In this document: in pieces, positions 47,515 to 64,000 of the stretch
How positions within the stretch are numbered: position 1 is the stretch's first letter
Layout: every line of letters starts with the position of its first letter
Assembly (NCBI RefSeq): GCF_026248685.1
Contig: NZ_CP111042.1
Location: forward strand, 1-64,000
Direction of reading: 5' to 3'
From: Haladaptatus caseinilyticus
GTDB taxonomy: Archaea; Halobacteriota; Halobacteria; Halobacteriales; Haladaptataceae
Length of the DNA stretch: 64,000 bases
Translations under genes and position numbers: made by a program
The notes under the pieces: generated by a model
What the model was told of the DNA's origin: nothing
Databases searched by the model: none
The model's input: the letters and a program-made list of their open reading frames with translations, nothing else

Positions 47515-49884
47515 TCAGCGGTCTCCAGCTTCTGCTCTGGGTGTGATAACACTCGGGAGTCGGTCTATGTGAGCGAGGCTCAGCCCCAAAAGAGCGAGCA
47601 GTGCCGTCGCGAGCTGAACCGTCGTCGCGACGCCACCACCGACAAACTGAGAGAGTGCTGATCCATACATCGACCCCAATGCCAACGCAAGGTATACGAG
47701 CCGATGTGGAAGCTGGAGCACGTGCTGACCATCGAACCCAATGGTGACGGCCGTTAGCGCGACAGTGCCGATGAAGACGCAGAAAACGGCGATTGGCGTC
47801 CCAGTAACAGTCCAATTGACGAGGCTGTCGTTCGCAACAAGTGCGAATGGGATAAGGAATCCGGCGGCACCGATTCGAAGCGCCTGCTTGGCTGAGACAA
47901 GAAATCCGCTATCGGCAATACGCGAGGCAACGGCCACCCCGACGGCAACCGGCGGCGTTATCGCCGAGAGCATCGCGAAGTAGAACACGAATAGGTGCGC
48001 AGTGATCTCCGTGACGCCGAGTTCCTGGAGCGGCGCAGTCAGGAGAGCCGCTACCAAGACATAGGCGGCTGGAGTTGGCATTCCCAGCCCGAACAGGATA
48101 CTCGTGACCATCGCGAGGAATAACGCGATGACGAGAATTCCACTAGCCAGTGCGACCATACGGAGGCTGATTTTTCCAGAAAGACCGGTTTGGGTGAGCA
48201 TTTTAATGATAACGCCCATTGCTGCAAGCACACCGACAAGCGGGGCCATGTCGAGCGCACCCTGTTTGAACCCACAGAGAGTCTTTATCGTCGTAGCACA
48301 CAACTGTCGTGGGACGGTCGATACGGTCGAGCCAAAGTCACTTACCGCTCCGTCGTAGCCAGCGACGACCCATGCGTCGTCGGACGTGCCGGTTGTCAAC
48401 AGGAGAGTGAGGTCACGGACGTACATGACAACGATGAGTGTCAACACGGTATACAAACCGGTTGCGAGTGCCGACAGCTGCATCACGGCCAACGCGTAGA
48501 CAAGTACTGCCATCGGGATGAGGAAATATCGACCGTGACAAAACCTCGCGACGGCGGTCTGCAGTTCCGACCAGCCACCCTCGTCCGAACCGGAGGCCAC
48601 GCCGTGGACGTATCGACTGAAGAGAAGCATGACTAAAGTCACGATACCCGCGACGAGTAGCGAGAGCGTCAAAACCTGACGTGCTATGTAGAACGCTCCA
48701 ACAGAGAGGGCGAAGTAGACGGCAACCAAAAGCGCACCCTTGCTGAAGGTGACCTCGAGCAACCCGCCGGTGCTCTCATCTTTTTCACTGGTCCACCCAT
48801 AGCGGAGTACCGCGAATTGAACCGCAATTGCCACGCTGAAATAGAACAGGAGTGCGGGGAAGAGCCCGGCCTGAATGATGCGGACGTAGGGAACACCAAT
48901 AAAATCAGCCATCAGGAAGGCAGCGACGCCCATGACCGGTGGCATGATCTGCCCGCCGCTCGAAGCCACTGCCTCGATAGCGGCGGTAAAGTCCTCTCGT
49001 ACACCCTGGCGTTGCATCATCGGGATGGTAAAGCTCCCAGTTGTTGCGGCGTTGGCCGCTGCGCTACCGGTGATTGACCCCATCGCCATCGACGAGACGA
49101 CGGCGACATGGACGATGCCGCTTCGGAGCCGTTTCCCGAGTCGCTGACTCAAGTCGAGGATAACGTCTAGGATACCGTAGGCCCTCGCTAGACCAGCGAA
49201 CATGATGAAGATGGCTACGTACTTCGCGCCGGCTTGGGTAATGAACCCGTACACTCCGGAGCGTTCGACCTGAGTTGCACCGTACAGAGTCACGTCTTGC
49301 AGCCCTAAACCGGTGTGATTGAGGAATCCTGGGAAATACGTCCCGTACAGCGCGTATAAGATAGAGATGACTCCCACGAGTGCGATAGACCACCCGTAGG
49401 CACGACGTGTGGCGTCAAGAATCATCACAACGACGATAAGCCCGAGGGTAAGATCGGTGTTCGAATATCCAAGAAGTATTGCGTCGCCCGTCAGTCGTCC
49501 GTACTCCGTTACAAAGTAATAGCCCGTAATTCCCGCGAGAGTCGCCATTACGAGACACACGACAGTATCAAGCTGGGCGTAGCGTTGTTGAATGGACTCG
49601 TTCACTCGACTCAATATCGATCCGTCTACCACTGATGGGCCCTCCGTCATTCGCTCAAAGGCGAGGTGCAGATAGTACAGGGCGAGTCCAAAGTGCAGGA
49701 AGATCATGCCGTGGATGATTTGTGGGAAGGGTCGGGCCCAGGCGTAGTAGATGGTATAGGATGTCAACCCAATCGCAAAAAGAACCACAGTTGACAATAG
49801 AACCTTCTCTGGCATCGAACGTGTGGCGAGAGTTTCGTGCAGACTGCGAGAAGAGGTCATCGAGTCGTCGGTAGCTTCGTTCAT
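47515..49884 (-). CDS. TRAP transporter fused permease (DctQ-DctM, TAXI type)
   Basis: A 789-residue membrane protein that fuses the small 4-span subunit (about residues 25-150) to the large 12-span DctM subunit. The DctM part shows AGLARAYGILDVILDLSQRL, SVTGSAAANAATTGSFTIPM-like sequence (GSITGSAAANAATTGSFTIP), the substrate/ion motif GGQIMPPVMGVAAFLMADFI, and a second-half mirror LGMPTPAAYVLVAALLTAPL. It works with the receptor encoded immediately upstream (36-bp gap) as a sodium-dependent importer of organic anions. Confidence 0.93.
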   Translation of the reverse strand: MNEATDDSMTSSRSLHETLATRSMPEKVLLSTVVLFAIGLTSYTIYYAWARPFPQIIHGMIFLHFGLALYYLHLAFERMTEGPSVVDGSILSRVNESIQQRYAQLDTVVCLVMATLAGITGYYFVTEYGRLTGDAILLGYSNTDLTLGLIVVVMILDATRRAYGWSIALVGVISILYALYGTYFPGFLNHTGLGLQDVTLYGATQVERSGVYGFITQAGAKYVAIFIMFAGLARAYGILDVILDLSQRLGKRLRSGIVHVAVVSSMAMGSITGSAAANAATTGSFTIPMMQRQGVREDFTAAIEAVASSGGQIMPPVMGVAAFLMADFIGVPYVRIIQAGLFPALLFYFSVAIAVQFAVLRYGWTSEKDESTGGLLEVTFSKGALLVAVYFALSVGAFYIARQVLTLSLLVAGIVTLVMLLFSRYVHGVASGSDEGGWSELQTAVARFCHGRYFLIPMAVLVYALAVMQLSALATGLYTVLTLIVVMYVRDLTLLLTTGTSDDAWVVAGYDGAVSDFGSTVSTVPRQLCATTIKTLCGFKQGALDMAPLVGVLAAMGVIIKMLTQTGLSGKISLRMVALASGILVIALFLAMVTSILFGLGMPTPAAYVLVAALLTAPLQELGVTEITAHLFVFYFAMLSAITPPVAVGVAVASRIADSGFLVSAKQALRIGAAGFLIPFALVANDSLVNWTVTGTPIAVFCVFIGTVALTAVTIGFDGQHVLQLPHRLVYLALALGSMYGSALSQFVGGGVATTVQLATALLALLGLSLAHIDRLPSVITPRAEAGDR

Positions 49885-49920
49885 TACTGGAGAGTGGTGT
49901 TGTGCTATTGTGGCGTCTCG

Positions 49921-50988
49921 TTACGGTTTTTCTCCGCGCTGGAAGTCTTCTGACCAAATGCCTTTCTCCTCGTAGAAATCGGCAGCTGCGGGGTGGAACG
50001 GGAAGTCAGTGTACGCATTCTTTACCCAGGCGTCACGTGCTGCCAATGGTTCGAGGAGCTTCGTCTGCTTCTGGAGTTTCTTGCGCTGGGCCCACAGCGC
50101 CTTGAGGAATGAATAGAGCGTGTCGTAGTCGTGATCGTCGCGAACGATGAAATTGTATGCTAGCGTTGGGGTGCTAAGCTTCTTGGGTTTATATGCATAG
50201 TTGTCAAACTGACTCATATCGATGTCAGAGACGACGATAGCCGGGTCGTCTTCAAGTTTCTTGACGATATTATCTGGCCAATCAAGCACGCGGAGGTCGA
50301 CCGTGCTTTTCATTTGCTGGAGCCATCCTGGCTCGATGGAGAGATTAACATAGGTCGCGGCACCGACATCCAGTCGCCCCTCGCTCATCGCACCCGCCTG
50401 GTCACTGTAGCTGACGCTGGTTCTTTTGTAATCACCCGACACGGAGTTCAGTGCATGTTCGAGCATCTCCGCAGTCCCGGATCCCTTTGGGGTTGGTGAA
50501 ACGTCGGATTCGCCCTTGATGTCCTTCACGCTCTTCCAGCCGTCGTTCGCCGTCGCGAGGAACCATGCCAGGTCATATAAGTGAAATACTTGGTACGGCT
50601 GGTGTTCGAGGTTCTTAAACGGCTTCTCGTTCTGACGTATCTTGTTTGCCGTCCAATTCTGGATGTACGCGATCTCCGTCTTCCCATTAATGACCTCTGA
50701 GACGTTTCGATTTGTTCCCTGACTCGGCCTGGCGTCAACCGAGACCTTCGAGTTCTGGCTGACGGTCGAGGCGATAACCTGACTCATTGAGTAGGCTGAC
50801 GTCGTCTCAGAAGCAGTTTTCATTACCATCTTGCCGTTCGTTCCGGGTTGCTTCGAACTACCTCCAGTTTTATTTTCGTCTCCAAAACAGCCAGCAAGTC
50901 CTGTTAGTCCTGCCGCCCCGGTAACTCCAGTCGAGCGTTTGAGAAACGTTCGTCTCGGCACATTCGGGGATTTGCCATGACCATGCAT
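49921..50988 (-). CDS. TAXI-family TRAP solute receptor, Tat lipoprotein
   Basis: A 355-residue extracytoplasmic receptor. The signal is PRRTFLKRSTGVTGAAGLTG followed by LAGC, with the lipobox cysteine at residue 34. The mature part matches TAXI receptors: TTSAYSMSQVIASTVSQNSK, VDARPSQGTNRNVSEVINGK and AYIQNWTANKIRQNEKPF. Late elements include YNFIVRDDHDYDTLYSFLKA and FPFHPAAADFYEEKGIW. It captures a small organic anion outside the cell and hands it to the fused permease. Confidence 0.92.
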   Translation of the reverse strand: MHGHGKSPNVPRRTFLKRSTGVTGAAGLTGLAGCFGDENKTGGSSKQPGTNGKMVMKTASETTSAYSMSQVIASTVSQNSKVSVDARPSQGTNRNVSEVINGKTEIAYIQNWTANKIRQNEKPFKNLEHQPYQVFHLYDLAWFLATANDGWKSVKDIKGESDVSPTPKGSGTAEMLEHALNSVSGDYKRTSVSYSDQAGAMSEGRLDVGAATYVNLSIEPGWLQQMKSTVDLRVLDWPDNIVKKLEDDPAIVVSDIDMSQFDNYAYKPKKLSTPTLAYNFIVRDDHDYDTLYSFLKALWAQRKKLQKQTKLLEPLAARDAWVKNAYTDFPFHPAAADFYEEKGIWSEDFQRGEKP

Positions 50989-51731: not shown

Positions 51732-52640
51732 ATGACACGTTATGGCTATGCGGCAATGAATATCACGCTTCGCGAAAAAGGCGTGCGGACGAACCGCGGA
51801 ATGCGGAAAGCCACCTTTCAAGAGCGTGGTCTTACATACGCCGGTGAACTTGCCGAGCAGAATTGTCGCGATCTCAAACGCATTCTTGAATGGAACCTTG
51901 ATCACGATATCTACTACTATCGGATCTCATCCGATTTACTCCCGTGGTTCAGCCAGTACGATCTCGGGGATTTGCCGAACGCTTCGACGGTTCGTTCACT
52001 CCTGTCCGAGGTCGGTAACTATGCTCTCGAGCAGGACCTCCGTCTCACATTCCACCCAGATCATTTCGTGAAGTTAGCAAGTAACGACGACGCCGTCGTG
52101 GAACGGTCGATAATAGACCTAGAAAACCACGGCACTATATTAGATGTAATGGGATTACCGCGAACGCCCTACTATGCAATCAACATCCATATTGGCGCTC
52201 ACTATGGCGACAAAAAAGCGACTGGCGAACGATTCTGTGAACACTTCGAACGACTTACACCGGCTGTACGGAAACGATTGACCGTTGAAAACGACGATAC
52301 TAAATCCCTATGGAGTATCTCCGAGTTAGTCGACACAATTAATGATCGAATCGGGATTCCAATCACATATGACGCTCTCCATCATCAGTTCACGAGCCGA
52401 GGGGTGACGTTCCGTGAAGCGCTCACTCGTGCCACAGAAACGTGGGAAACGACACCAATCATCCACTATAGTGAATCTCGATGCCTCCATGAGGCCGATC
52501 CATCGATTCGACCACAGAACCACAGTGACTACGTTAAAGGACCAATCCGAACTTACGGTACAGATGTCGACGTCATGATCGAGGCAAAGCAAAAAGAGTT
52601 GGCGGTACTTCGGTACCAAAATACAACACAGACAGCGTAG
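51732..52640 (+). CDS. uvsE: UV-damage endonuclease, UvsE/UVDE family
   Basis: A 302-residue TIM-barrel repair nuclease that nicks DNA 5' to UV photoproducts. It begins TRYGYAAMNITLREKGVRTN, the family N-terminus. Typical blocks are YYRISSDLLPWFSQYDLG, LRLTFHPDHFVKLASNDDAV, INIHIGAHYGDKKATGERFC and RLTVENDDTKSLWSISELVD, which supply His, Glu and Asp metal ligands. TYDALHHQF and HYSESR complete the set. It is monocistronic and gives a light-independent backup to photolyase, sensible for a sun-exposed halophile. Confidence 0.93.
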   Translation: MTRYGYAAMNITLREKGVRTNRGMRKATFQERGLTYAGELAEQNCRDLKRILEWNLDHDIYYYRISSDLLPWFSQYDLGDLPNASTVRSLLSEVGNYALEQDLRLTFHPDHFVKLASNDDAVVERSIIDLENHGTILDVMGLPRTPYYAINIHIGAHYGDKKATGERFCEHFERLTPAVRKRLTVENDDTKSLWSISELVDTINDRIGIPITYDALHHQFTSRGVTFREALTRATETWETTPIIHYSESRCLHEADPSIRPQNHSDYVKGPIRTYGTDVDVMIEAKQKELAVLRYQNTTQTA

Positions 52641-52828: not shown

Positions 52829-53569
52829 TCAGTCGTAAGAATTAGATCCAAGTAGATCGACGAGTTTTTCGAAATTTGGTTGGGGAAATGTCTGTTTGCT
52901 TTGGCTTATTCCATGGCGTGCCCATGTGTTTGCTTGTTCGAGGGCGATAGTTGCTGGGTCGAGGAAGGGGACATCCACTCGCTCTTGAATTTCATGGTGG
53001 CGTTGCGCAAAGGAGAGACTCATACAACCCGGAAACAGTGCTTCAGCACCATCCTCCTCGATCGCGCGCTGTCCAACGGATACCATACGTTTGACTAGCT
53101 GATTCGATTCATGGTCAATGGATTCCACTGGTGCGTCGACTGAGCGAACGCTCGCTAATTGCTCGGACAGACCATATTCGTGCGCTTGTTCACGAGACAT
53201 CGGGATTGTTTCATCAAGGATGGTCAACCATGAGAAGCGATCAGCCACTTGCGCGGCTGTATGGATAGTGGCTTCTGCCGGTCCAATGACCGGGATGTCA
53301 AGCAATTCCCGTAAGGGACGAAGGCCTGGATCTCCGAAACAGCCAATGACAATAGCGTCAAAATCATCCCTAATCTCGTATGCACGACGCATCGATCCAA
53401 CAATGCACCACGCTTCTTCGACGCTACTTTCGATGCTCGAGGGACCAGCACTCCTTGACTGGACAACCGTTACGTCCGCTGCGGTCAGCTCATTGGCAAT
53501 GCGTTCTCGACGTGTTCGTTCGTCGGCGTCGAGTCCTGTCCCCGGAACGAGGTAGGCGACATCGGACAT
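52829..53569 (-). CDS. Asp/Glu/hydantoin racemase-family enzyme
   Basis: A 246-residue cofactor-independent racemase-like protein. The two catalytic cysteines are in IVIGCFGDPGLRPLRELLDI (about 88) and EALFPGCMSLSFAQ (about 191). The N-terminal strand is VAYLVPGTGLDADE. It probably racemises hydantoins or amino-acid derivatives, or performs a related two-base reaction. ATG 53569 (MSDVAYLVPGTG) is chosen because the preceding M28-like gene stops two bases upstream at 53571, indicating an operon. Confidence 0.85.
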   Translation of the reverse strand: MSDVAYLVPGTGLDADERTRRERIANELTAADVTVVQSRSAGPSSIESSVEEAWCIVGSMRRAYEIRDDFDAIVIGCFGDPGLRPLRELLDIPVIGPAEATIHTAAQVADRFSWLTILDETIPMSREQAHEYGLSEQLASVRSVDAPVESIDHESNQLVKRMVSVGQRAIEEDGAEALFPGCMSLSFAQRHHEIQERVDVPFLDPATIALEQANTWARHGISQSKQTFPQPNFEKLVDLLGSNSYD

Positions 53570-53570
53570 C

Positions 53571-55343
53571 TCAAACCTCCCTGAGCATGTCGCGCGCTCG
53601 CCGTAGCTCATGAATCACACCATTTTGTTCACGATTTAGCTGTATTTGGAGGAACTTTCGATAGTCTCCCGTTAGGAATTCGAATTTCCGAGCTGGTGCA
53701 TACCGCGGGAATGGCTCGCGCTTTACAGCCGGATCTTGTTCAAACTGATCACGTTGTACAAGGTTAAGTCGTGTAAGGACACGGGAGAGATCTGTGATGA
53801 TATTATTCGCATCCGAAGCGTCGATTTCGCCATCGTGTGCTGCCTCCTGAAACGACACGATATCGCCCCGAAGCGAGCGAAGCTCTGCCAATGTTGGCTC
53901 GAAGTCAAAGGCATCACCCGCGGCTTCGTTGTACTCGGTAACGGTTTCTATGAGTCGGTCAGCGTTACGCGAGTGGTCGAACGGAAGGATATTTGCGTTC
54001 AAGACGCGGGCCAAACTAGTAGCATACACACGAATATCGCGAACCAGTTCTTCTTTTCCGGCTTTATCAAGCGTGTCAGTCGAAACATGCCACGCATCGG
54101 AGTTACCGCCACATCCACCGACGGGATGCCACCCATTTTCCTCACGGACGTCGGCCGGAATGTTAGAGGAAAGCATGAAGAAACCAGTGATACCCAAATT
54201 ATCGAATGAATAGTCACCGGCACGAAACGGGTGATTCTCAGCATAGGGTGCGCCAGTTACATCATCGATGGCTTCGCCCACTAGGTCGTGAGCCTCAGGT
54301 GTCCAACAAGACATATCTGTATATTCCGTCGCACCTTTTGCGCCCGGACTATCCATATTCACTTGGGCAATACAATTTTCTGCCAAGTCGAGTGCAAACT
54401 CATCAGCATACCACGTACTGCCAGCGTATCTTCCAGTGGAGTGCCCCGGCCACCATGCGACTCTCAGACTGCGATTTAATTTGTCGCTATGCATACCAAA
54501 TACGCGGGCAAGTTCGAGAAGTCCGGCATCACCGGTTGCATTGTCGGTGATACCGACATACCAAGAGTCGTAATGCCCGTGTAGTAGGACGAATTCGTCC
54601 GTGTCACTACTTCCTTCGATTTCAGCAACTACGATCGGGCACTTCATCCAGTCGGTTGTCAGGTTTGTTTCCAATTCCACCTCTAATCCATCATTCTCTT
54701 CGGCCCACTCGCGCAACTGTTGCCCGTCTGGCTTTCGAACGTTGACGATGGGGATCTCTGGGATTTGTTCCTTTTCGTCTAACCGAGGAGCACCCCCCCA
54801 AATCGGGGTTGCGATGCCATTGTGCGGTTCGCGGTCGTGTTCGTGAATAGCGATGACGCCGATTGCACCCTTTTCCTCTAGGATTCGTGTCGCGCGGATC
54901 GAGAGACTTCCTGCTGCGGTGAGAGCAATCGTGTCCGTTAGGTCATCAACGTCGGTGTATGGCTCGTGGACATCTTCATTCTGGGAAAGCAGGTCTGTAC
55001 CTGCCGACCCGACATATTCTACCTCACCTGATACGGTCGTTGAGGTAGCGAAGGAGACGGTTTTGACCGGTCCGAACTCGAATTCACGATTGAGAGTTCG
55101 AATGGTCGCATCGTGCGGTTGGCTGATATATAATTCAGGATCGTATCGTTGGTACTCAACTCCAAATTTGTCCAGTCGATCCGTGATGTATTCGGCAGCT
55201 TGTACCTCTTCGTCTGTGCCTGACACTCGTTCTAGCTCCGAAAACTCTTCCAGTAATGCCCACGGTTCATCCACCGAGACTTCATCGATTATTTCCATCT
55301 CGAAGTCGCTGAGGGCATCACTGTTTGCCACTTGGTGATTCAT
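53571..55343 (-). CDS. M28-like zinc hydrolase with altered active site (paralog 1)
   Basis: A 590-residue member of the M28 aminopeptidase fold with a PA-like inserted domain (about 100-240). Metal-site blocks: LLHGHYDSWYVGITDNATGD (His and bridging Asp), QVNMDSPGAKG (Asp) and DAWHVSTDTLDKA (His). Where active M28 enzymes have GEE (catalytic Glu plus zinc ligand), this protein reads VAWWPGHSTGRYAGSTWYAD, that is Gly-His-Ser. It is therefore either a different kind of hydrolase or inactive as a peptidase. A paralog with the same replacement is at 61976. First gene of a pair with the racemase. Confidence 0.85.
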   Translation of the reverse strand: MNHQVANSDALSDFEMEIIDEVSVDEPWALLEEFSELERVSGTDEEVQAAEYITDRLDKFGVEYQRYDPELYISQPHDATIRTLNREFEFGPVKTVSFATSTTVSGEVEYVGSAGTDLLSQNEDVHEPYTDVDDLTDTIALTAAGSLSIRATRILEEKGAIGVIAIHEHDREPHNGIATPIWGGAPRLDEKEQIPEIPIVNVRKPDGQQLREWAEENDGLEVELETNLTTDWMKCPIVVAEIEGSSDTDEFVLLHGHYDSWYVGITDNATGDAGLLELARVFGMHSDKLNRSLRVAWWPGHSTGRYAGSTWYADEFALDLAENCIAQVNMDSPGAKGATEYTDMSCWTPEAHDLVGEAIDDVTGAPYAENHPFRAGDYSFDNLGITGFFMLSSNIPADVREENGWHPVGGCGGNSDAWHVSTDTLDKAGKEELVRDIRVYATSLARVLNANILPFDHSRNADRLIETVTEYNEAAGDAFDFEPTLAELRSLRGDIVSFQEAAHDGEIDASDANNIITDLSRVLTRLNLVQRDQFEQDPAVKREPFPRYAPARKFEFLTGDYRKFLQIQLNREQNGVIHELRRARDMLREV

Positions 55344-55617
55344 CACTCAAACACTCACAGTACGTCTACAAATTTGTTTGGTATGTTATCACAAGGCTCA
55401 CCATCGAACCACTTCCTCATCGACCGTGGAAAATTGGAAGTACACGTTCGTCCTCTCACTGTTCGACAATAACACGACCGTCGGATGCGATATTGCCCTC
55501 ACTGATGAGACGACAGTCTCCAATTCGGACGGTTCTGGGCTCGGAGTTCGGCCACATGAAAGTCTCTTCGACAATCTCGATACGTAACTTTACGTATTGT
55601 GACGCAAAACCTCTGTC

Positions 55618-56652
55618 ATGCGAGCTGTTCACATTACTCGCTTTGGCTCGCCAGCAGAGGCACTATCCGTTGTAGATACAGACATACCGCAACCGGGTTC
55701 GAACGAAGTCCGCGTCAAGGTGGAAGCTTGCGCACTCAACCACCTCGATATTTTTGCCCGGCTCGATCACCCGGAGAACGACGGACAGTTCCCGAAACGT
55801 ACTGGTTGTGATATTGCGGGTGTCGTGGATGCCGTCGGCGAGGACGTTCCTGACTCGCGTGTGGGAGAAGAAATCATCGTCTATCCCGGTACCACCTGCG
55901 GTGAGTGTGAATACTGTCTCAATGGCGAACACACCATGTGTCACGAGTATCAAATCATCGGTGAAGATCTCCCGGGAGGTCTCGCTGAGTACGTCACAGT
56001 CCCAGTCTGGTGTTTAGATCCGAAGCCAGAGTCACTTGACTTCGTAACCGCGGCGGCATGGCCGGTCACCTTCACCACTGCATGGCGGATGATCGTAACC
56101 ACAGGCCGACTCCGTCCTGCAGAGACAGCACTGATTCTCGGCGCGAGTGGCGGCGTCGGAAATGCCGCTCTACAGATAGCCGATTTTCTCGGTGCGACAA
56201 CATACGCGACTACATCGACGCCAGAAAAAGCTGACCTAGTCACCGAATGGGCGGACGAAGTTATTGATTATACTGAGACGGCCTTCGATGATGCGATCGA
56301 TGATCTAACCGACGGTCGCGGTGTCGACCTTGTGGCTGACCACGTCGGTCAGGAAACGTGGCAGCGTAGTATTAATAGTCTTGCAATGGGGGGCCGAATG
56401 GTTATTTGCGGTGCGACGAGTGGCCCCAGTCCGGACATTGATATCCGATCCGTCTATCAGCATCACCGGCAAATACGTGGTGCACCGATGGGCAATCGAC
56501 AGGATTTTCGAGACGTTGGACGGCTTATTGCGTCCGGTGATCTTCACCCTGTTGTCGATCGTGTGATTCCCTTGAGTCGTATCAACGAAGGTCACGACGC
56601 CATCGAGAATCGCGAGGTGTTCGGAAAAATAGTCATAGAACCTCAATCATGA
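55618..56652 (+). CDS. Zinc-type medium-chain dehydrogenase
   Basis: A 344-residue MDR-superfamily alcohol dehydrogenase. The catalytic domain starts RAVHITRFGSPAEALSVVDT and has TGCDIAGVVDAVGEDVPDSR. The structural zinc site is CGECEYCLNGEHTMC (about 87-101). The NAD(P) fold is LILGASGGVGNAALQIADFL. The usual first catalytic zinc ligand region reads EACALNHLDIFARLDHP, with Asn-His in place of the typical Cys, as in quinone-oxidoreductase-like members. Monocistronic by spacing, in the catabolic cluster. Confidence 0.9.
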   Translation: MRAVHITRFGSPAEALSVVDTDIPQPGSNEVRVKVEACALNHLDIFARLDHPENDGQFPKRTGCDIAGVVDAVGEDVPDSRVGEEIIVYPGTTCGECEYCLNGEHTMCHEYQIIGEDLPGGLAEYVTVPVWCLDPKPESLDFVTAAAWPVTFTTAWRMIVTTGRLRPAETALILGASGGVGNAALQIADFLGATTYATTSTPEKADLVTEWADEVIDYTETAFDDAIDDLTDGRGVDLVADHVGQETWQRSINSLAMGGRMVICGATSGPSPDIDIRSVYQHHRQIRGAPMGNRQDFRDVGRLIASGDLHPVVDRVIPLSRINEGHDAIENREVFGKIVIEPQS

Positions 56653-56735
56653 GTACCTTGTTAACTCTCTTTACTCGTTCCTTACCCCGATACTGTTAAG
56701 TGGTATCTCTCAGTCTAAGTATATGAGAGTGATGC

Positions 56736-57485
56736 ATGGTGACAATACGCATTCGATATCTTCTCCAAATTTCACTCCTTCTGGTAGTCATTTTCGGAAT
56801 GAGTTTCGCCCCTACGACTGCACAAGAAGGACAAGAACCGGACGTAACACTCGCACAGACGGCAATTCAAGTAGACGCTGATGAAACGAGCACCGTTTCG
56901 GCCCAGTACCAGTTTGACGTTCAGAGTGCTGGCAGCGGAGACGCCTCACTGTCTGCGATTGAAGGAACGATATGGTTATTTCCTAACCACGAGGTTGGCG
57001 ACGTTTCCGCTACAGTGAACGGAAACGAGGTCACACCGGATGTCACCAGGCATGACCGGTACATGGATCTCGCCGTTCCCATCGAGAACGTAAGAAATGG
57101 TGAGTCGCTTACCGTTAGTGTGGAATACACTGTCCAGGGGCCACCAAACAAGCTGAAAGCTCCGATTTGGGTGCCGTCGTTCGAAACTGCCGGAACGGAG
57201 CGCGTGATTGATATGACGGTAAATCTCCCCGACGGAACACAAGTACACGGCGCGTCATTCCCGAAGGTGGGTGCACGAAGTGATGGGGGAACGACGTTGC
57301 AGTATAGTATGCTACATGTTCCCGGGTTTGTCTTAGTTAACTACGGGGAAGGAGCGGGGTCGTTCCTTACCTTAGACGTTCTGTCAACACTTATCGGTCT
57401 TGTAGTCATTGTCGGATTTTTAGGACTATGGGCGGCGTACACCCGTGGATTCATTGGAAACAGGAGGGAAGAAAATGTCACTTAG
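56736..57485 (+). CDS. Exported, C-terminally membrane-anchored protein
   Basis: A 249-residue protein with an N-terminal hydrophobic signal (about 5-27, ending TTAQEGQ), a beta-rich extracellular domain and a C-terminal span (about 212-235, STLIGLVVIVGFLGLWAAYT) with a basic cytoplasmic end. Repeated strands such as IEGTIWLFPNHEVGDVSATV suggest an Ig-like fold. The gene overlaps the next by 11 bp, in the symporter operon, so it may be an accessory to that transporter. I do not recognise the family. Confidence 0.7.
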   Translation: MVTIRIRYLLQISLLLVVIFGMSFAPTTAQEGQEPDVTLAQTAIQVDADETSTVSAQYQFDVQSAGSGDASLSAIEGTIWLFPNHEVGDVSATVNGNEVTPDVTRHDRYMDLAVPIENVRNGESLTVSVEYTVQGPPNKLKAPIWVPSFETAGTERVIDMTVNLPDGTQVHGASFPKVGARSDGGTTLQYSMLHVPGFVLVNYGEGAGSFLTLDVLSTLIGLVVIVGFLGLWAAYTRGFIGNRREENVT

Positions 57486-57630
57486 TTCGCAATTGATGAC
57501 GTTCTTGGGAGTAGCGTTGATTTACATCGGCTTCGCGTTTGTGTGGGGCTGGTATAAAGGACAACAAAAGAAAAGGAAGACAGCGGATGAAGGACAGTCC
57601 GGAAAAGAAAGTGTACGAGGTGAACAATAA
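57475..57630 (+). CDS. Small membrane subunit of the symporter operon
   Basis: A 51-residue protein: MSLSSQLMTFLGVALIYIGF, AFVWGWYKGQQKKRKTADEG, then a polar tail. It has one span followed by a Lys-rich cytoplasmic end. ATG 57475 overlaps the end of the preceding gene, and its stop shares a base with the start of the symporter gene. Small one- or two-span partners encoded next to sodium:solute symporters are known, so an assembly or regulatory role is likely. Confidence 0.75.
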   Translation: MSLSSQLMTFLGVALIYIGFAFVWGWYKGQQKKRKTADEGQSGKESVRGEQ

Positions 57631-59147
57631 TGGCACTCACGGGTGTTAGCCCACTGTTCATTGGCACTGTCGTCGTGTACTTCCTTGTCATTCTCGGCAT
57701 CGGCTATTACGGATATATTCGAACAACTGATGAAGAAGACTTTCTTGTTGCAGGTCGTGAAATCGGTCCAGTCGTCGGTGGTGCAACCCTTTCTGCTACG
57801 CAAATGAGTGCGGGAACACTGGTTGGAACATTCGGCATACACTACCTCCTTGGGTTTGGCTTTATTTGGATCTGGCCTGGATTATGGGCTGGATGGATCG
57901 TTTCACTTCTTCTCGTCGCACCGCAGATGCGGCGCTTTGGGCGAGTCACTGTGCCTGATTTTATTGCCGTACGATACGGAGATGACGGTGCCAATGGGAA
58001 TTACTCGCGTGCCATCGGAGCGATACTCATTGTCATCGCATACACCGTCTACCTTAGTGCACAAGTAACAGGCGGTGGGATAATCTTCCAGTCGATACTT
58101 GGACTTGACCCTGAAATTGGGATCATTACTATGGCTCTAATCGCAGTATTTTACACTTCTATAGGCGGCATGCGAGCAAGCATTCTGACCGACTTCGTTC
58201 AGGCTATCATCATGGCAGTCGCAGTCGTCATTGCGCTCCCACTCTCGTTTACTTTTGTTGGTGGACTGGGAACCGTCAATGCCATTTTCCAATCGTTTAA
58301 TCCTTCTTTCGTCGGACAGGCGCTATCTACGCAAGAGATTGTTGGCTTCATGGCTGCATTCGGCTTCTCCATCGCTGCCGCACCATATGAAATAACCCGC
58401 ATTTACTCGATGAAAGATGAGAAGACAGTTCGCCAAGCTATTGGCATCACCCTTATTTTCCAATCGATCATCGGAACCTCGGTCGCGTTACTTGCGATCT
58501 ACATGCGCATCATGTTTCCTGCTCTTTCGAATCCCGACCTCGCTAGCGTTATCATGAGTCTGAACGTGCTCGGACCAATCTTGGGGGCACTACTCGTCTG
58601 CGCCATCTTTTCGGCGATCCTTTCAACCGTCGACTCTGTAATGATCGTTTCTGGTGCGGGACTCGCTCACGATATTTATGTCCAACTCTTCAACCCTGAC
58701 GCGTCGGAGCGACAGAAAGTGTGGGCAAACCGCATTGCAATCGCCATCCTCGGACTTATTCCACTTGCACTTGCACTCAACCGCGGGCTTGTCGGCGATC
58801 TCGTCCAACTGATCGTTGTCCTCCAAGCATCTATGATGGGTGCGATGTTCTTCATGCCGCTTGTGCTCGGCCTACATTGGAGGCGCGCTACTACAGCAGG
58901 TGGCGTTGCTGGGATGATATTTGGGTTCTCTACGGTCGTCATCTGGCACGTCGGCACCGAGATTCTCTCATATATTCCGGAGAGCCTCGCTGGTTATGAT
59001 CCTGTCATTCCAGGTGTAATAGTGAGTTTCATCGTCATGGTCACCATCTCTTATGCCACAAAGAAACCGTCTCCCGAATCACTTGCGCCGTTCTTTGACA
59101 ACGTTGTTTCCGTCGACGGTGGCAGTGATAGCGATCAGGACACATAA
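57630..59147 (+). CDS. Sodium:solute symporter (SSS family)
   Basis: A 505-residue, about 13-span sodium-coupled importer. Family segments: DEEDFLVAGREIGPVVGGAT, LSATQMSAGTLVGTFGIHYL, VTVPDFIAVRYGDD, YLSAQVTGGGIIFQSILGLD and the signature-like IFSAILSTVDSVMIVSGAGL containing sodium-site Ser/Thr residues. The substrate is probably an organic acid, amino acid or amide, given the neighbouring hydrolases. It is translated after the small membrane protein with a one-base overlap. Confidence 0.93.
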   Translation: MALTGVSPLFIGTVVVYFLVILGIGYYGYIRTTDEEDFLVAGREIGPVVGGATLSATQMSAGTLVGTFGIHYLLGFGFIWIWPGLWAGWIVSLLLVAPQMRRFGRVTVPDFIAVRYGDDGANGNYSRAIGAILIVIAYTVYLSAQVTGGGIIFQSILGLDPEIGIITMALIAVFYTSIGGMRASILTDFVQAIIMAVAVVIALPLSFTFVGGLGTVNAIFQSFNPSFVGQALSTQEIVGFMAAFGFSIAAAPYEITRIYSMKDEKTVRQAIGITLIFQSIIGTSVALLAIYMRIMFPALSNPDLASVIMSLNVLGPILGALLVCAIFSAILSTVDSVMIVSGAGLAHDIYVQLFNPDASERQKVWANRIAIAILGLIPLALALNRGLVGDLVQLIVVLQASMMGAMFFMPLVLGLHWRRATTAGGVAGMIFGFSTVVIWHVGTEILSYIPESLAGYDPVIPGVIVSFIVMVTISYATKKPSPESLAPFFDNVVSVDGGSDSDQDT

Positions 59148-59188
59148 TCGTCGGCAACTATTAGTTCCATGGAGAGTGATGTGTTACC

Positions 59189-59380
59189 GTGCAACTTGAT
59201 CCGACGGCAGTCACCGCGATTACGCTGTTATTTTGTATGGCAGTCATATCGGCTGGACTCGGTCTCTATCTGGTCTTCACGAATCCGCCAAAAGATAACT
59301 CAAAGTTCGTCGGTCTTCGTGCACAGAAGATGACTGATGAAGAGGTGGCGCGATACGAACAGGAGAGGGCAAACGAGTGA
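59189..59380 (+). CDS. Second small membrane protein of the symporter operon
   Basis: A 63-residue protein from a GTG start: QLDPTAVTAITLLFCMAVIS, AGLGLYLVFTNPP, then a charged cytoplasmic tail (MTDEEVARYEQERANE). One span. It lies 41 bp after the symporter and completes a four-gene unit with one carrier, two microproteins and one exported protein. Function unknown. Confidence 0.65.
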   Translation: MQLDPTAVTAITLLFCMAVISAGLGLYLVFTNPPKDNSKFVGLRAQKMTDEEVARYEQERANE

Positions 59381-59387
59381 AACGAGA

Positions 59388-60773
59388 CTACACAATTTCG
59401 CTCTCAGCCAAACGGCGAAGCAACTCCGTCGTCGTCAAGATGCCATTTCGAAAGCAAGCAAGCGAAAGATTCTCATCCGGCGAATGATTGTTCTCATCGC
59501 TATTAGCATACGGTACAGTAACGCAAGGGATATCGAGTTGGTCAGCAAACACCGCCGTCGGGAGTGACCCGCCAAGTGTTGGTTTCAAGATCGGGTCAGT
59601 AGACCACCCCGTCGCAACCGCCGCCAATATTGGCTCACGAATCGGATGATCAAGCGGTGTCCGCTGAGGGCGCATCATTCCCAATTTTTCCACCGAAAGG
59701 TCAACCGTTTTCGATGCGTGTGATTCGACGTGATTCTTGAACTTCTCGAACACATCGTTCGGATCCTGATCCGCAACGAGGCGCATGTCTAACTTTGCCT
59801 GTGCTTTCGAAGGAATAATCGTCTTCATCCCCTCACCGCCGTATCCACTTGTAAAGCCAGCAATATTCAGCGTGGGAAAATAGAGCAACTTCTCCAAGTA
59901 GTTCTCACCCGCACCGGCCGCAAAGCCATCAACGTCCAGCTCCGTCTTCACTGCATCAGAGTCAAAGGGCATCGCATCGAGAATGTCTCGATCTAACTCT
60001 TTAATTGGCCGAACATCATCGTAGAACCCCTCGATCGTGATGCGACCATCTTCATCCTTCATCGAATCGAAAATACGGACGAGTTCCCATGCAGGGTTAG
60101 GAATCGGACCGCCGTAATTGCCGGAGTGAAGGTCGCGATTTGCCCCGCGTGCGTTCACCTCAACGTAACACATGCCACGCGCCCCCATGAGGATGTGTGG
60201 TCGACCTGAGGAGTCTATCGGTCCGTCTGCGACGTACGTGAGATCAGCCATCAGTTCATCGCTTCGCTCACGGACGGTGTGCTCCAGGTTAGGGCTGCCG
60301 CTCTCTTCTTCGCCTTCCAGTAGTAACGTTACGTTTGTCGGGAGCCCATCCGTTTCGCGAAGCGCGAGAACCGCACAGAGGTGTGCGAACCACTGACCTT
60401 TATTATCACCCGCGCCGCGGGCATAGATTCGTTTATCGCCGTCTGGCCCCTCACGGATCGTTGGACTAAACGGCGGTGTTGTCCATTCTTGTGGGGCTAC
60501 GGGTTGGACGTCATAGTGACCATAGATAAGAGACGTCGGTGCTTCATTATCGGGATCACCACCGACGTAGGCGTGCGCGATCACCGATGGCTGCCCTGGT
60601 GTTTCTATAATCTCGACCGTGTCAAAGCCATAGTCGCGACAGAGTTGCCCTACAAGATCGATACACTCCGAGATCCCCTCACTGGTCGCGCTGATTGATG
60701 GCTGGGCGAGAAGGTCGAAAAGGTCGTTGATAAAGCCGTCAAATTTGGATTCGACGTATTCTGTGGCACTCAT
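59388..60773 (-). CDS. M20-family dipeptidase/deacylase
   Basis: A 461-residue dizinc hydrolase. Metal and catalytic blocks: LIYGHYDVQPVAPQEWTTPP (His, catalytic Asp), RGAGDNKGQWFAHLCAV (bridging Asp), LLLEGEEESGSPNLE (catalytic Glu and ligand Glu), and a late His region NNHSPDENLSL. The dimerisation domain lies between, with NYGGPIPNPAWELV. It cleaves dipeptides or removes N-acyl/carbamoyl groups from amino acids. Its start overlaps the amidohydrolase stop by 4 bp. Confidence 0.92.
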   Translation of the reverse strand: MSATEYVESKFDGFINDLFDLLAQPSISATSEGISECIDLVGQLCRDYGFDTVEIIETPGQPSVIAHAYVGGDPDNEAPTSLIYGHYDVQPVAPQEWTTPPFSPTIREGPDGDKRIYARGAGDNKGQWFAHLCAVLALRETDGLPTNVTLLLEGEEESGSPNLEHTVRERSDELMADLTYVADGPIDSSGRPHILMGARGMCYVEVNARGANRDLHSGNYGGPIPNPAWELVRIFDSMKDEDGRITIEGFYDDVRPIKELDRDILDAMPFDSDAVKTELDVDGFAAGAGENYLEKLLYFPTLNIAGFTSGYGGEGMKTIIPSKAQAKLDMRLVADQDPNDVFEKFKNHVESHASKTVDLSVEKLGMMRPQRTPLDHPIREPILAAVATGWSTDPILKPTLGGSLPTAVFADQLDIPCVTVPYANSDENNHSPDENLSLACFRNGILTTTELLRRLAESEIV

Positions 60774-61918
60774 GCAACCACCTCTCCGCGCTTTACTACC
60801 ACACGCGGTTCAGCCACCGTTTGAGGGTTCTCCAAGGGTGGATCGTCAACAACGACGAGATCGGCGCTCTTCCCGACTTCAAGGGTGCCGACGCGGTCAT
60901 CGATGTGAGCTGCCCGCGATGCTTCGGTCGTTATCGCTCGGAGTGCAGTCGCAGGACTCGCGCCGAGATCGAGTAGATGAGAGATTTCGTCTGCGAGGTG
61001 ACCGTGCATGCTGTCGGTACCAAGTGCAATAGGCACATCTCGCGAGAGGACGTCCTCCCACGCCTCGCGTCCGCGCTCACGTGCCTCCTCAACTTTCGCC
61101 ATGACCGCCGACGAATCTGCATCTCCTGCCTCAATGCCATGCGGGTGGTAGAGGATCGAGAACGTCCCGACAACGTGTTGATCACCGCCGTCCAGCGCAT
61201 CAAGCGTATTGTGATCAAGTACACCACCATGCTCGATGGTGTCTACTCCGGCCTCGGCCGCCGAGAGTGCTCCTTGACCGCCATGGGCATGAGCGGCCAC
61301 ATGAACGCCCAGCCGATGCGCTTCATCCACGATGGCCATCACCTCTTCGTTTGTATAGAGTGGCCGGCCAACGTCACCTGTCTCGCTCGAGACGCCACCG
61401 GTGGCAAAATACTTCACATGGTGCGCGCCTTCGTCGATGTTCTCACGAATCCGCCGTCGTATCGCTTCTACTCCGTCGGTCGCAGTTAACGCTTTTCCGT
61501 GGCCGCCGGTCGGAGTAAGGTGGACACCGCTCGGGAGTAAACGTGGCGCGTCGAGTTCGCCCTGGCGCTCTAATTCAGCGAGCTGGAGGTCGAGGCCACG
61601 TTCTTCGCCCATCAGTCGCATCGTCGTCGTTCCAGCTTCGAGATCACATCGAAGGTTGCTTGTCGAACGAATCGCGCCGACGGCAGGTGGTGCCCGTAGC
61701 TGGTTTAGTTGATCGCCTTCCCACGGTCGAATAGACGCGTGTGAATGGGCGTCTACGAATCCAGGCATGGCGTACCCATCTGTGTCTACAATCACCTCGG
61801 CGTCGACGGGAATGTCGCTGCGTAGTTCCACCACAAGGCCATCCTCTACGACCACGACAGTCTCATCAAGCTGTTCTCGATCTGGGTGGTAAATACCGGC
61901 AGTTCGAATGCAGTGCAT
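60770..61918 (-). CDS. Metal-dependent amidohydrolase (imidazolonepropionase/prolidase-like)
   Basis: A 382-residue TIM-barrel amidohydrolase. Metal ligands: PGFVDAHSHASIRPWEG (HxH), HHVKYFATGGVSSETGD (likely carboxylated Lys), VHVAAHAHGGQGALSAAEAG (His), GVDTIEHGGVLD (His) and ALGTDSMHGH (Asp). The C-terminal SADLVVVDDPPLEN strand closes the small beta domain. It would hydrolyse a cyclic amide, dipeptide or similar substrate, feeding the M20 enzyme encoded downstream. ATG 61918 is preferred over 61936. Divergent from the second M28-like gene (57-bp gap), so probably co-regulated. Confidence 0.9.
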   Translation of the reverse strand: MHCIRTAGIYHPDREQLDETVVVVEDGLVVELRSDIPVDAEVIVDTDGYAMPGFVDAHSHASIRPWEGDQLNQLRAPPAVGAIRSTSNLRCDLEAGTTTMRLMGEERGLDLQLAELERQGELDAPRLLPSGVHLTPTGGHGKALTATDGVEAIRRRIRENIDEGAHHVKYFATGGVSSETGDVGRPLYTNEEVMAIVDEAHRLGVHVAAHAHGGQGALSAAEAGVDTIEHGGVLDHNTLDALDGGDQHVVGTFSILYHPHGIEAGDADSSAVMAKVEEARERGREAWEDVLSRDVPIALGTDSMHGHLADEISHLLDLGASPATALRAITTEASRAAHIDDRVGTLEVGKSADLVVVDDPPLENPQTVAEPRVVVKRGEVVA

Positions 61919-61975
61919 TGCCACCAATGGACGCACCTAGTGATTATAATACCATGTGCAACTGACCCACGGTAT

Positions 61976-63697
61976 ATGTTAAAACTCATCGATCGGGAGA
62001 TAGAAGCGACGTTTCGAGATCGCATTGATTCTGAAGAGCTCGAACGACACATCGATGCATTCGACGGATTAGAGCGCGTCTCGGGGACGGAAGACGAATG
62101 GACAGCGAGCGAATACGTCGTTGAGACGCTTACGGAATATGGTGTTGACGCGACACTCGAAGAATTTGATGCATATGTCAGTGTTCCGGAGGACGCTGAA
62201 CTTACCGTGACAACGCCGACGCATCGAGAGGTGACGGACGCCATCACCACTTCGTTCGGCGCAAGCACTCCCGCAGCCGGGATCCATGCGGAGGTCGTTC
62301 ACCTCCCGAATGTGGATGCCGAATCGGTTGCGAACACCGATATCACCGACCGTATCGTCTTTACTCGCGGTCTTCCGACACCCGAGCCAGTGCGATTACT
62401 CGAAAACGCTGGTGCCACTGCAGTAATCTTCGAATCGGTCACACCCGATGAGCTCCACGAGATGATTGTCACGCCAGTCTGGGGAACTCCTGAACTCGGT
62501 GATGAGGCGGACATTCCAAACCTTCCGGTAATCGAAATACTACAACAAGACGGCGCGTGGCTTCGTCGCCGTCTTGATGACGGGCCAGTCGAAGCAACAG
62601 TGACCACAGAAGTGACGACTGAAATACGGACACTTCCGTGTCCGGTTGGGCGTCTCGAGGGGAACAAGAGCGACCGTTTCTTTCTCATCGGTAATCACGT
62701 GGACTCGTGGTATGAAGGACTCACGGACAACGCCACTGCGATGGCGGCAACACTCGAACTTGCACGTATCTTTGCCGAGGAGCAGCCACGCCGCGGACTT
62801 GTCTTCGGGTTTTGGCCCGGTCACTCGACCGGCCGATACGCTGGCAGTGCGTGGTATGCTGACGAGTATTGGGCTGACCTACGCCAAAACGGCGTTGCCT
62901 ATCTTCACCTCGATCTGAATGGGTTACGAGGTGCCGACAGTCTCTGGTACCAGCATATGGCTGAACTCGGTGACGAACATCTCAATACCATGGAAACGGC
63001 AAGCGACTTCCCTCTCCGCGAGGACGATGAGAGCTTCCTTGGCGACTCAGATCGCCCAGCACGAAATTCGGATCAATCATTTTGGGGTGCTGGGCTTTCC
63101 TCGCTTCTCTCTGGTGCACGTCTTGACCCTGGAACACAAGATGGTGGCCCAATTGGTGGTGGGTGGTGGTGGCATACGCCTGAAGACACCCGCGACAAAG
63201 TCGATATAGACGTACTTGTCGAAGAAACCAAGCTCTACGTATCGCTGGCAGCGCGCATTTGTGAATCTCCTGTCCTCCCTCATGATTATAGCGCCACTGC
63301 GGCTGACATTCGTACTGAACTCGACGCAATCGATCCTGACGATGAGTGGTTTACTGATGTTCGATCCGAACTTGATGCCTTTGAGACAGCCATCACTGAA
63401 GCGAATGAGGTCATCGATCACGTGGATACTGAAACCGAATCGTCGTTGAAGGCCGTCGAAGATTTGCAGGTCGATCTCGGAAATTTGCTCGTTCCTGCCC
63501 TTTATACCTCCGGTAGCGAGCATCATCAGGAATCGGCACTTCCGTTTGCACCCCTTCCTGGCCTCCGAATCGATGAGTTATCGGAGCTCACCGGACGTGA
63601 GCTACTCTTCGCTAAAACGACGCTCCAACGAGAGGAAAACCGCCTTGCAGATCGTCTTCGCGCCGCGACTGATCGAATTGAGCGATTCATAGACTAG
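61976..63697 (+). CDS. M28-like zinc hydrolase with altered active site (paralog 2)
   Basis: A 573-residue paralog of the protein at 53571 with the same plan: N-terminal helices (SEELERHIDAFDGLERVSGT), a PA-like insertion (about 75-220), and the M28 core. Core blocks: IGNHVDSWYEGLTDNATAMA, FGFWPGHSTGRYAGSAWYAD with Gly-His-Ser replacing GEE, HLDLNGLRGADS and WWWHTPEDTRDKVD. The helical C-terminal extension (about 480-573) is again Asp/Glu-rich. ATG 61976 (MLKLIDREIEA) is chosen because the upstream frame is antisense to the amidohydrolase. It overlaps the convergent SDR stop by 3 bp. Confidence 0.87.
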   Translation: MLKLIDREIEATFRDRIDSEELERHIDAFDGLERVSGTEDEWTASEYVVETLTEYGVDATLEEFDAYVSVPEDAELTVTTPTHREVTDAITTSFGASTPAAGIHAEVVHLPNVDAESVANTDITDRIVFTRGLPTPEPVRLLENAGATAVIFESVTPDELHEMIVTPVWGTPELGDEADIPNLPVIEILQQDGAWLRRRLDDGPVEATVTTEVTTEIRTLPCPVGRLEGNKSDRFFLIGNHVDSWYEGLTDNATAMAATLELARIFAEEQPRRGLVFGFWPGHSTGRYAGSAWYADEYWADLRQNGVAYLHLDLNGLRGADSLWYQHMAELGDEHLNTMETASDFPLREDDESFLGDSDRPARNSDQSFWGAGLSSLLSGARLDPGTQDGGPIGGGWWWHTPEDTRDKVDIDVLVEETKLYVSLAARICESPVLPHDYSATAADIRTELDAIDPDDEWFTDVRSELDAFETAITEANEVIDHVDTETESSLKAVEDLQVDLGNLLVPALYTSGSEHHQESALPFAPLPGLRIDELSELTGRELLFAKTTLQREENRLADRLRAATDRIERFID

Positions 63698-64000
63698 GAG
63701 AGACTGGCACCGCCATCAACAGTGACGACACTTCCCGTCATGTATGCACCGCCCTCACCGGACAAAAACTCGATTACTTCGGCTACTTCGTCTGCCGAAC
63801 CCAGTCGTTGTATCGGTAGATCCGCGGTGAATGCTTCGATCTCTTCTTCCGTCCACAATCCTGAGTCGGTCGTTAATGGCGTATCGATGAGCCCTGGAAC
63901 GACGCAATTGACACGGACTGACGGTGCAAGCTGTTTTGCTAACCCCTTTGTGAGACCAAGAATCCCTGCTTTCGAAGCTGAGTAGTGAACACCGGCACTC
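63694..64000 (-). CDS. Short-chain dehydrogenase/reductase, 5' end outside the window
   Basis: The C-terminal about 101 codons of a classical SDR are present. The catalytic Tyr-Lys pair appears as HYSASKAGILGLTKGLAKQL at the window edge, followed by VRVNCVVPGLIDTPLTTDSG, the substrate loop, and the end GEGGAYMTGSVVTVDGGASL. The Rossmann N-terminus is not visible. It may oxidise or reduce an intermediate of the neighbouring hydrolase pathway. Confidence 0.88.
   Translation of the reverse strand, partial: SAGVHYSASKAGILGLTKGLAKQLAPSVRVNCVVPGLIDTPLTTDSGLWTEEEIEAFTADLPIQRLGSADEVAEVIEFLSGEGGAYMTGSVVTVDGGASLS

Follow-up and report, generated by a model that had tools for sequence, protein, structure and literature searches.

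Histidine at the general-base position in a branch of M28B zinc peptidases encoded within a putative amide-catabolic gene cluster of a haloarchaeon

What has become of a zinc peptidase in which the catalytic glutamate pair is replaced and the other metal ligands are kept? This question is raised by two genes in the 64,000 nucleotides of DNA analysed here (the window), which form the beginning of a 389 kb contig (C7) of the haloarchaeon Haladaptatus caseinilyticus. Their products, P0001 (53571..55343, minus strand, 590 amino acids) and P0002 (61976..63697, plus strand, 573 amino acids), are 31% identical over their length and score 66.9 and 57.2 bits, respectively, against Pfam Peptidase_M28 (PF04389), both above the gathering cut-off of 21.3 bits. 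Each carries the motif WPGHSTGRYAGSxWYAD (hereafter GHS), represented by WPGHSTGRYAGSTWYAD in P0001 (54402..54452, minus strand) and by WPGHSTGRYAGSAWYAD in P0002 (62813..62863, plus strand). They are the only members of this family found in the host genome, the remaining M28 matches being far weaker and carrying EE. The closest match for each is a Haladaptatus plasmid, and the sole name given to such proteins in the annotated records examined is "M28 family peptidase."

The initial annotation had placed GHS where active M28 enzymes have GEE, and alignment agrees. The GCPIII segment WDAEEFGL-LGST aligns over WPGHSTGRYAGST with His-Ser on Glu-Glu, as is also the case against canonical M28 proteins, so that H301 (P0001 numbering) takes the position of the general-base Glu and S302 that of a zinc-ligand Glu. 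H257, D267, D331 and H419 are retained in both proteins, which bears out the further claim that the remaining metal-site blocks had been kept. Compared with EExGLxGS, the GHS motif has one residue inserted ahead of GS, which could be taken to mean that these are ordinary M28 peptidases whose Glu pair is only shifted by the alignment. We reject this reading and attach almost no probability to it, because the stretch 296-314 is devoid of a conserved Glu, the alignment is held in place by W298 on one side and G308-S309 on the other, and the register is fixed by a sister clade with the motif GHE, described below. The alignment revealed no displaced Glu pair that would restore the normal M28 site, and among 109 aligned relatives there is no nearby conserved Glu able to substitute for it.

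Structure prediction, which had been suggested as a check, gave high-confidence AlphaFold2 models (pLDDT 94.9 for P0001 and 92.2 for P0002) that are GCPII-like over the entire architecture. In Foldseek searches with these models the best PDB match of P0001 was GCPIII/GCPII, with a TM of 0.79 along the entire protein, and P0002 matched transferrin receptor 1 (TfR1), GCPII and NAALADase-like proteins with TM values of about 0.8. These full-length matches indicate that both predicted structures possess the apical and C-terminal helical dimerisation domains of the M28B architecture. With GCPII, GCPIII and the NAALADase-like proteins the GHS proteins thus share the apical domain, the M28 core and the TfR-like helical dimerisation domain (TM about 0.8), together with the His, bridging Asp, Asp and second-site His ligands. 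They differ in having His for Glu424 (the base) and Ser for Glu425 (a zinc ligand) of GCPII, in a loop that is one residue longer, and in an overall identity of 16-18%; moreover, no transmembrane or signal segment is apparent in the sequences of P0001 and P0002. Bacterial M28 aminopeptidases (2ek8, 6hc6 and others) are the best PDB profile match, covering the apical and core domains, but they keep Glu-Glu and have chains of 421-455 amino acids with a shorter C-terminus and without the helical domain. A PDB search found no solved structure for any enzyme of the clade. The E424A and E424M variants of GCPII are among the Foldseek matches and are titled in the PDB as inactive mutants; hence, loss of the Glu is harmful in the parent-type enzyme, a point that weighs against activity in the GHS proteins.

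The best Foldseek match of P0002 is TfR1, a non-peptidase of M28B in which the metal site has been lost. The fold is alike and the catalytic Glu pair is missing from both, which brings up the possibility that P0001 and P0002 have no catalytic activity and serve in binding or regulation, as subunits that pair with each other or with another enzyme. The absence of the catalytic Glu and of one zinc ligand would be consistent with this, and GHS paralogues encoded side by side would suit a heterodimer formed through the TfR-like helical domain. We nevertheless consider it improbable. The GHS proteins conserve four metal ligands, in contrast to TfR1, and a scaffold needs neither H257, D267, D331 and H419 in more than 100 sequences nor exactly His at the base position. 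The GHE proteins retain the full dinuclear ligand set, and certain genomes carry subfamily I (that of P0001) alone, others subfamily II (that of P0002) alone.

A search for the GHS motif, also among the checks originally proposed, contributed to a set of 109 relatives, which was thus partly selected with the motif itself and favours it, and in which H301, S302, R305, Y306, G308, S309 and D314 are invariant (106 rows in a second alignment). The first-site ligands H257, D267 and D331 occur in 109/109 rows and the second-site H419 in 108/109. The general-base Glu is absent throughout, its place being taken by His in each of the 109 rows as well as in the GHE proteins, and the second-metal ligand Glu is Ser in every GHS row and still Glu in the GHE rows. 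Searches made independently of the motif, with the whole protein or a profile, returned strong matches whose motif, where read, was GHS or GHE only; EE proteins appeared as a separate and far weaker group (E ~1e-23 or weaker). Comparison with the Haladaptatus orthologues gave a pN of 0.10 and a saturated pS of 0.79 for P0001 and a pN of 0.14 and a pS of 0.76 for P0002, and both genes are under purifying selection. Pseudogene decay is ruled out by this selection and by the open frames of the relatives. The original argument for re-purposing over decay is thus well supported: the motif is invariant, the genes are under purifying selection, the clade is deep and the operon is conserved. Two further features vary within the family. 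An apical residue, H174, is found in 98% of GHS proteins and is absent from the aligned GHE proteins, and in five alphaproteobacterial subfamily II proteins (L030, L036, L059, L071 and L081) the HxD beside the first metal ligand is replaced by HxC; by its sequence, this branch may diverge further.

The GHE proteins were revealed by profile searches; further examples came from Alphaproteobacteria and from Acuticoccus and Pantoea plasmids. A GHE-clade protein also scores above the PF04389 cut-off (61.8 bits), and in alignment all five metal ligands are intact, only the catalytic base being altered. In a tree built without the motif columns and with EE proteins as the outgroup, SH-aLRT support was 99 for the GH(E/S) clade, 97 for GHE and 91 for GHS, on a topology with long branches. 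Mapping the motif on this tree requires two changes, the minimum: EE gives way to GH(E/S), which divides into GHE and GHS. Within GHS there are three groups, namely I (with P0001), II (with P0002) and III (Rhizobium and Agrobacterium plasmids). The I/II split has a support of 95, subject to a long-branch warning, and is old, since haloarchaea and bacteria alike have both groups. At the outset the two Glu residues were treated as lost in a single event; the GHE clade indicates two steps. On sequence grounds, the base swap is the only change common to the whole GH(E/S) clade, and the base-position His was probably the founding change, with loss of the zinc-ligand Glu coming later. The best-supported and probable history is the simplest, EE to HE to HS; its alternative is a return of Glu in GHE. 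No description of GHS or GHE M28 proteins or of their gene cluster was found in the open literature. As far as we could find, the clade is a widespread and apparently undescribed branch of zinc peptidases, and its GHE sister clade is newly found here.

How might such a site work? Four kept metal ligands and an exact His across a clade that spans Bacteria and Archaea argue for a working metalloenzyme. On balance we lean, with some reserve, towards P0001 and P0002 being active, cytosolic, metal-dependent amide hydrolases that use His as the base and serve the catabolism of peptide-like or cyclic amides. They belong to a monophyletic M28B clade marked by replacement of the general-base Glu with His and, in the GHS branch, also of the zinc-ligand Glu with Ser. 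Zinc would be held by H257, D267 and D331, water would be activated by H301, and H419 and S302 would lie close to a weakened or lost second metal site. Judged from their residues, the GHS proteins probably hold one metal, at H257, D267 and D331. The histone deacetylases, which have an Asp-His-Asp zinc and paired histidines, offer a parallel in principle: acid-base catalysis by His at a single zinc of this kind is established in them. The site could instead still be dinuclear, with H301 binding the second metal (perhaps Mn or Fe) in place of the lost Glu and a different residue serving as the base; His is commonly a metal ligand, and the other second-site ligands, H419 and D267, are conserved. 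This we think unlikely, given that GHE proteins keep the ligand Glu beside the His, which was therefore probably not gained as its replacement, and that no invariant acidic residue or His peculiar to the clade is conspicuous as a new base, save H174, which is absent from the aligned GHE proteins.

The neighbouring genes bear on the substrate. All of the neighbours listed by the initial annotation (racemase, M20 peptidase, amidohydrolase, MDR and SDR dehydrogenases and sodium symporter) are present. Directly downstream of P0001 lies an Asp/Glu/hydantoin racemase-family gene (52829..53566, minus strand; PF01177, 114.5 bits), whose likely start is 5 bases from the P0001 stop codon. The nearest solved structures to its product are hydantoin and allantoin racemases, and a pattern search found both catalytic Cys motifs in 34/34 cluster racemases. 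A zinc-binding MDR dehydrogenase/reductase (55618..56652, plus strand; Pfam/NCBIfam) is divergent from P0001. It is followed by the gene of a conserved 249-residue protein of family F22 (56736..57485, plus strand), which to judge by eye from its sequence appears to be exported and membrane-anchored; it has no Pfam or NCBIfam match, and other haloarchaeal GHS clusters also have it, placed between the MDR and symporter genes. The sodium:solute symporter (SSF; 57630..59147, plus strand; Pfam/NCBIfam) is a possible importer of the cluster substrate. An M20 peptidase (59388..60773, minus strand) scores best as the PRK08201 dipeptidase type, which is also found in the GHS clusters of Nitratireductor and Ketogulonicigenium, and no carbamoylase model is among the matches listed for it. 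The adjoining amidohydrolase (60770..61936, minus strand) resembles a Caulobacter-type Xaa-Pro dipeptidase (NF051886, 205.7 bits, below the cut-off of 500). Beyond P0002 an SDR dehydrogenase occupies 63694..64000 of the window (minus strand) and continues to contig position 64440. HyuA and HyuB are absent from this cluster; four HyuA-type genes are located elsewhere in the genome.

Other genes lie close by. A fused TRAP transporter with an NMT1-like (TAXI-type) binding protein (47515-50988) adjoins the cluster region, as does a UvsE/UvdE UV-damage endonuclease (51732-52640). Outside the window, at C7 73557-78511 (locus L002 10058-15012), two mandelate-racemase-family epimerase genes flank that of a DgcN-like DUF1611 protein, near a D-aminoacylase-like amidohydrolase and an oligopeptide-binding protein; these genes possibly serve the catabolism of D-glutamate or of D-amino-acid peptides.

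Neighbours were counted in 71 GHS loci of at least 6 kb, using reading-frame calls and models built from the same loci. Opp transporter components occur in 44-46 of the 71, MDR in 33 (within 500 bp in 25 of those), IclR in 33 and the racemase in 31. Less frequent are SSF and HyuB (14 each), M20, amidohydrolase and HyuA (12 each), and M19 and capsule-type PGA_cap (6 each). The same models applied to 15 canonical M28 control loci found MDR and Opp once each and racemase, IclR, HyuA/B and M20 never, a comparison in which the models derive from the GHS loci and certain control contigs are short. Chance clustering is rejected on the strength of these controls. Co-conservation of the neighbours in other genomes, on which the clustering argument had been staked, holds from haloarchaea to Alphaproteobacteria. 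The nine GHE loci have Opp in 8, racemase in 6, MDR in 4 and HyuA in 3, and the operon common to GHE and GHS comprises M28, racemase and SBP5 plus Opp, with MDR, M20 and HyuA/B. Among haloarchaea, subfamily I adjoins MDR and/or racemase, and subfamily II has an SDR-family gene nearby in every locus examined. Certain other frequent neighbour groups (e.g. F9, F10 and F20) were treated as antisense reading-frame artefacts, because they have no Pfam match or, in GC-rich genomes, are located opposite other genes. In L028, L034, L037, L041, L051 and L052, which are loci of Chloroflexota, Thermomicrobiota, Deinococcota and a Caldarchaeum, the GHS gene has a PGA_cap (CapA-like) gene no more than 500 bp away.

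Known Hyu clusters (HyuA, HyuB, HyuC and HyuE) have a hydantoin-type racemase and an M20 hydrolase in common with these loci, as well as HyuA/HyuB in the bacterial relatives. They differ in that the GHS/GHE clusters add an M28 protein, MDR and an Opp transporter and that the M20 enzyme of GHS clusters is dipeptidase-like and not a carbamoylase. The best score of the cluster HyuA/B was against caprolactamase subunits, below the cut-off. Taken together, the dipeptidase-like M20, the Xaa-Pro-dipeptidase-like amidohydrolase, HyuA/HyuB and the oligopeptide-type transporters point to imported peptide-like or cyclic amides, and from the neighbours we infer that the substrate is a cyclic amide or modified peptide. 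The racemase family targets alpha-carbons that are acidified by a ring or amide, as in hydantoin and allantoin racemases and OpaE. The last of these is an epimerase of the Asp/Glu racemase family whose substrates are derivatives of non-ribosomal peptides (PMC12661438, PMC7530659); by analogy this lead would fit peptide-like rings.

A reaction order may be suggested from these genes. The substrate would be imported by the SSF, Opp ABC or TRAP systems and its alpha-carbon epimerised by the racemase; amide bonds would be cleaved by the M28, M20 and amidohydrolase enzymes, in many bacteria also by ATP-dependent HyuA/HyuB, and an MDR or SDR enzyme would oxidise or reduce an intermediate. Conceivably, the clade has abandoned hydrolysis and acts on the racemised substrate as a lyase or transferase, or by cyclising it. 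The water-activating Glu has been lost, M20, amidohydrolase and in many bacteria HyuA/HyuB are already there for amide cleavage, and each M28 protein is often accompanied by a separate dehydrogenase, an MDR for I and an SDR for haloarchaeal II. No positive feature for such chemistry was found, and to our knowledge all active M28 enzymes, glutaminyl cyclases excepted, are hydrolases; we rate this reading as rather remote and retain that of a His-dependent amide hydrolase.

The distribution of the family is patchy. It occurs in 12/195 genomes of the host's order, and GHS or GHE proteins in 4/150 genomes of the Nitratireductor order, which suggests transfer or loss, and annotated plasmids of Nitratireductor, Ketogulonicigenium and Acuticoccus carry such clusters. 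Two GHS paralogues are often adjacent, as with subfamilies I and II in haloarchaea, Thermomicrobiota and Alphaproteobacteria; the adjacent pairs (L034, L037, L041, L079 and others) combine I with II or I with I. This arrangement suggests a heteromer or two linked steps.

A more far-reaching scheme, offered tentatively and as doubtful in its entirety, is that of a stepwise rewiring. Glu would first have become His (GHE, with two metals), and the second Glu would then have become Ser (GHS), giving a one-metal Asp-His-Asp amidohydrolase whose histidine acid-base chemistry resembles that of histone deacetylases. Having become fixed a single time, this change would have spread across Bacteria and Archaea as the core of an undescribed pathway for peptide-like or cyclic amides with paired GHS paralogues. 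The M28 family includes the drug target PSMA/GCPII, and a natural His clade together with a relative altered only at the base makes the Glu-to-His base swap in amide hydrolysis directly testable. The cluster itself points to a pathway common to archaea and bacteria.
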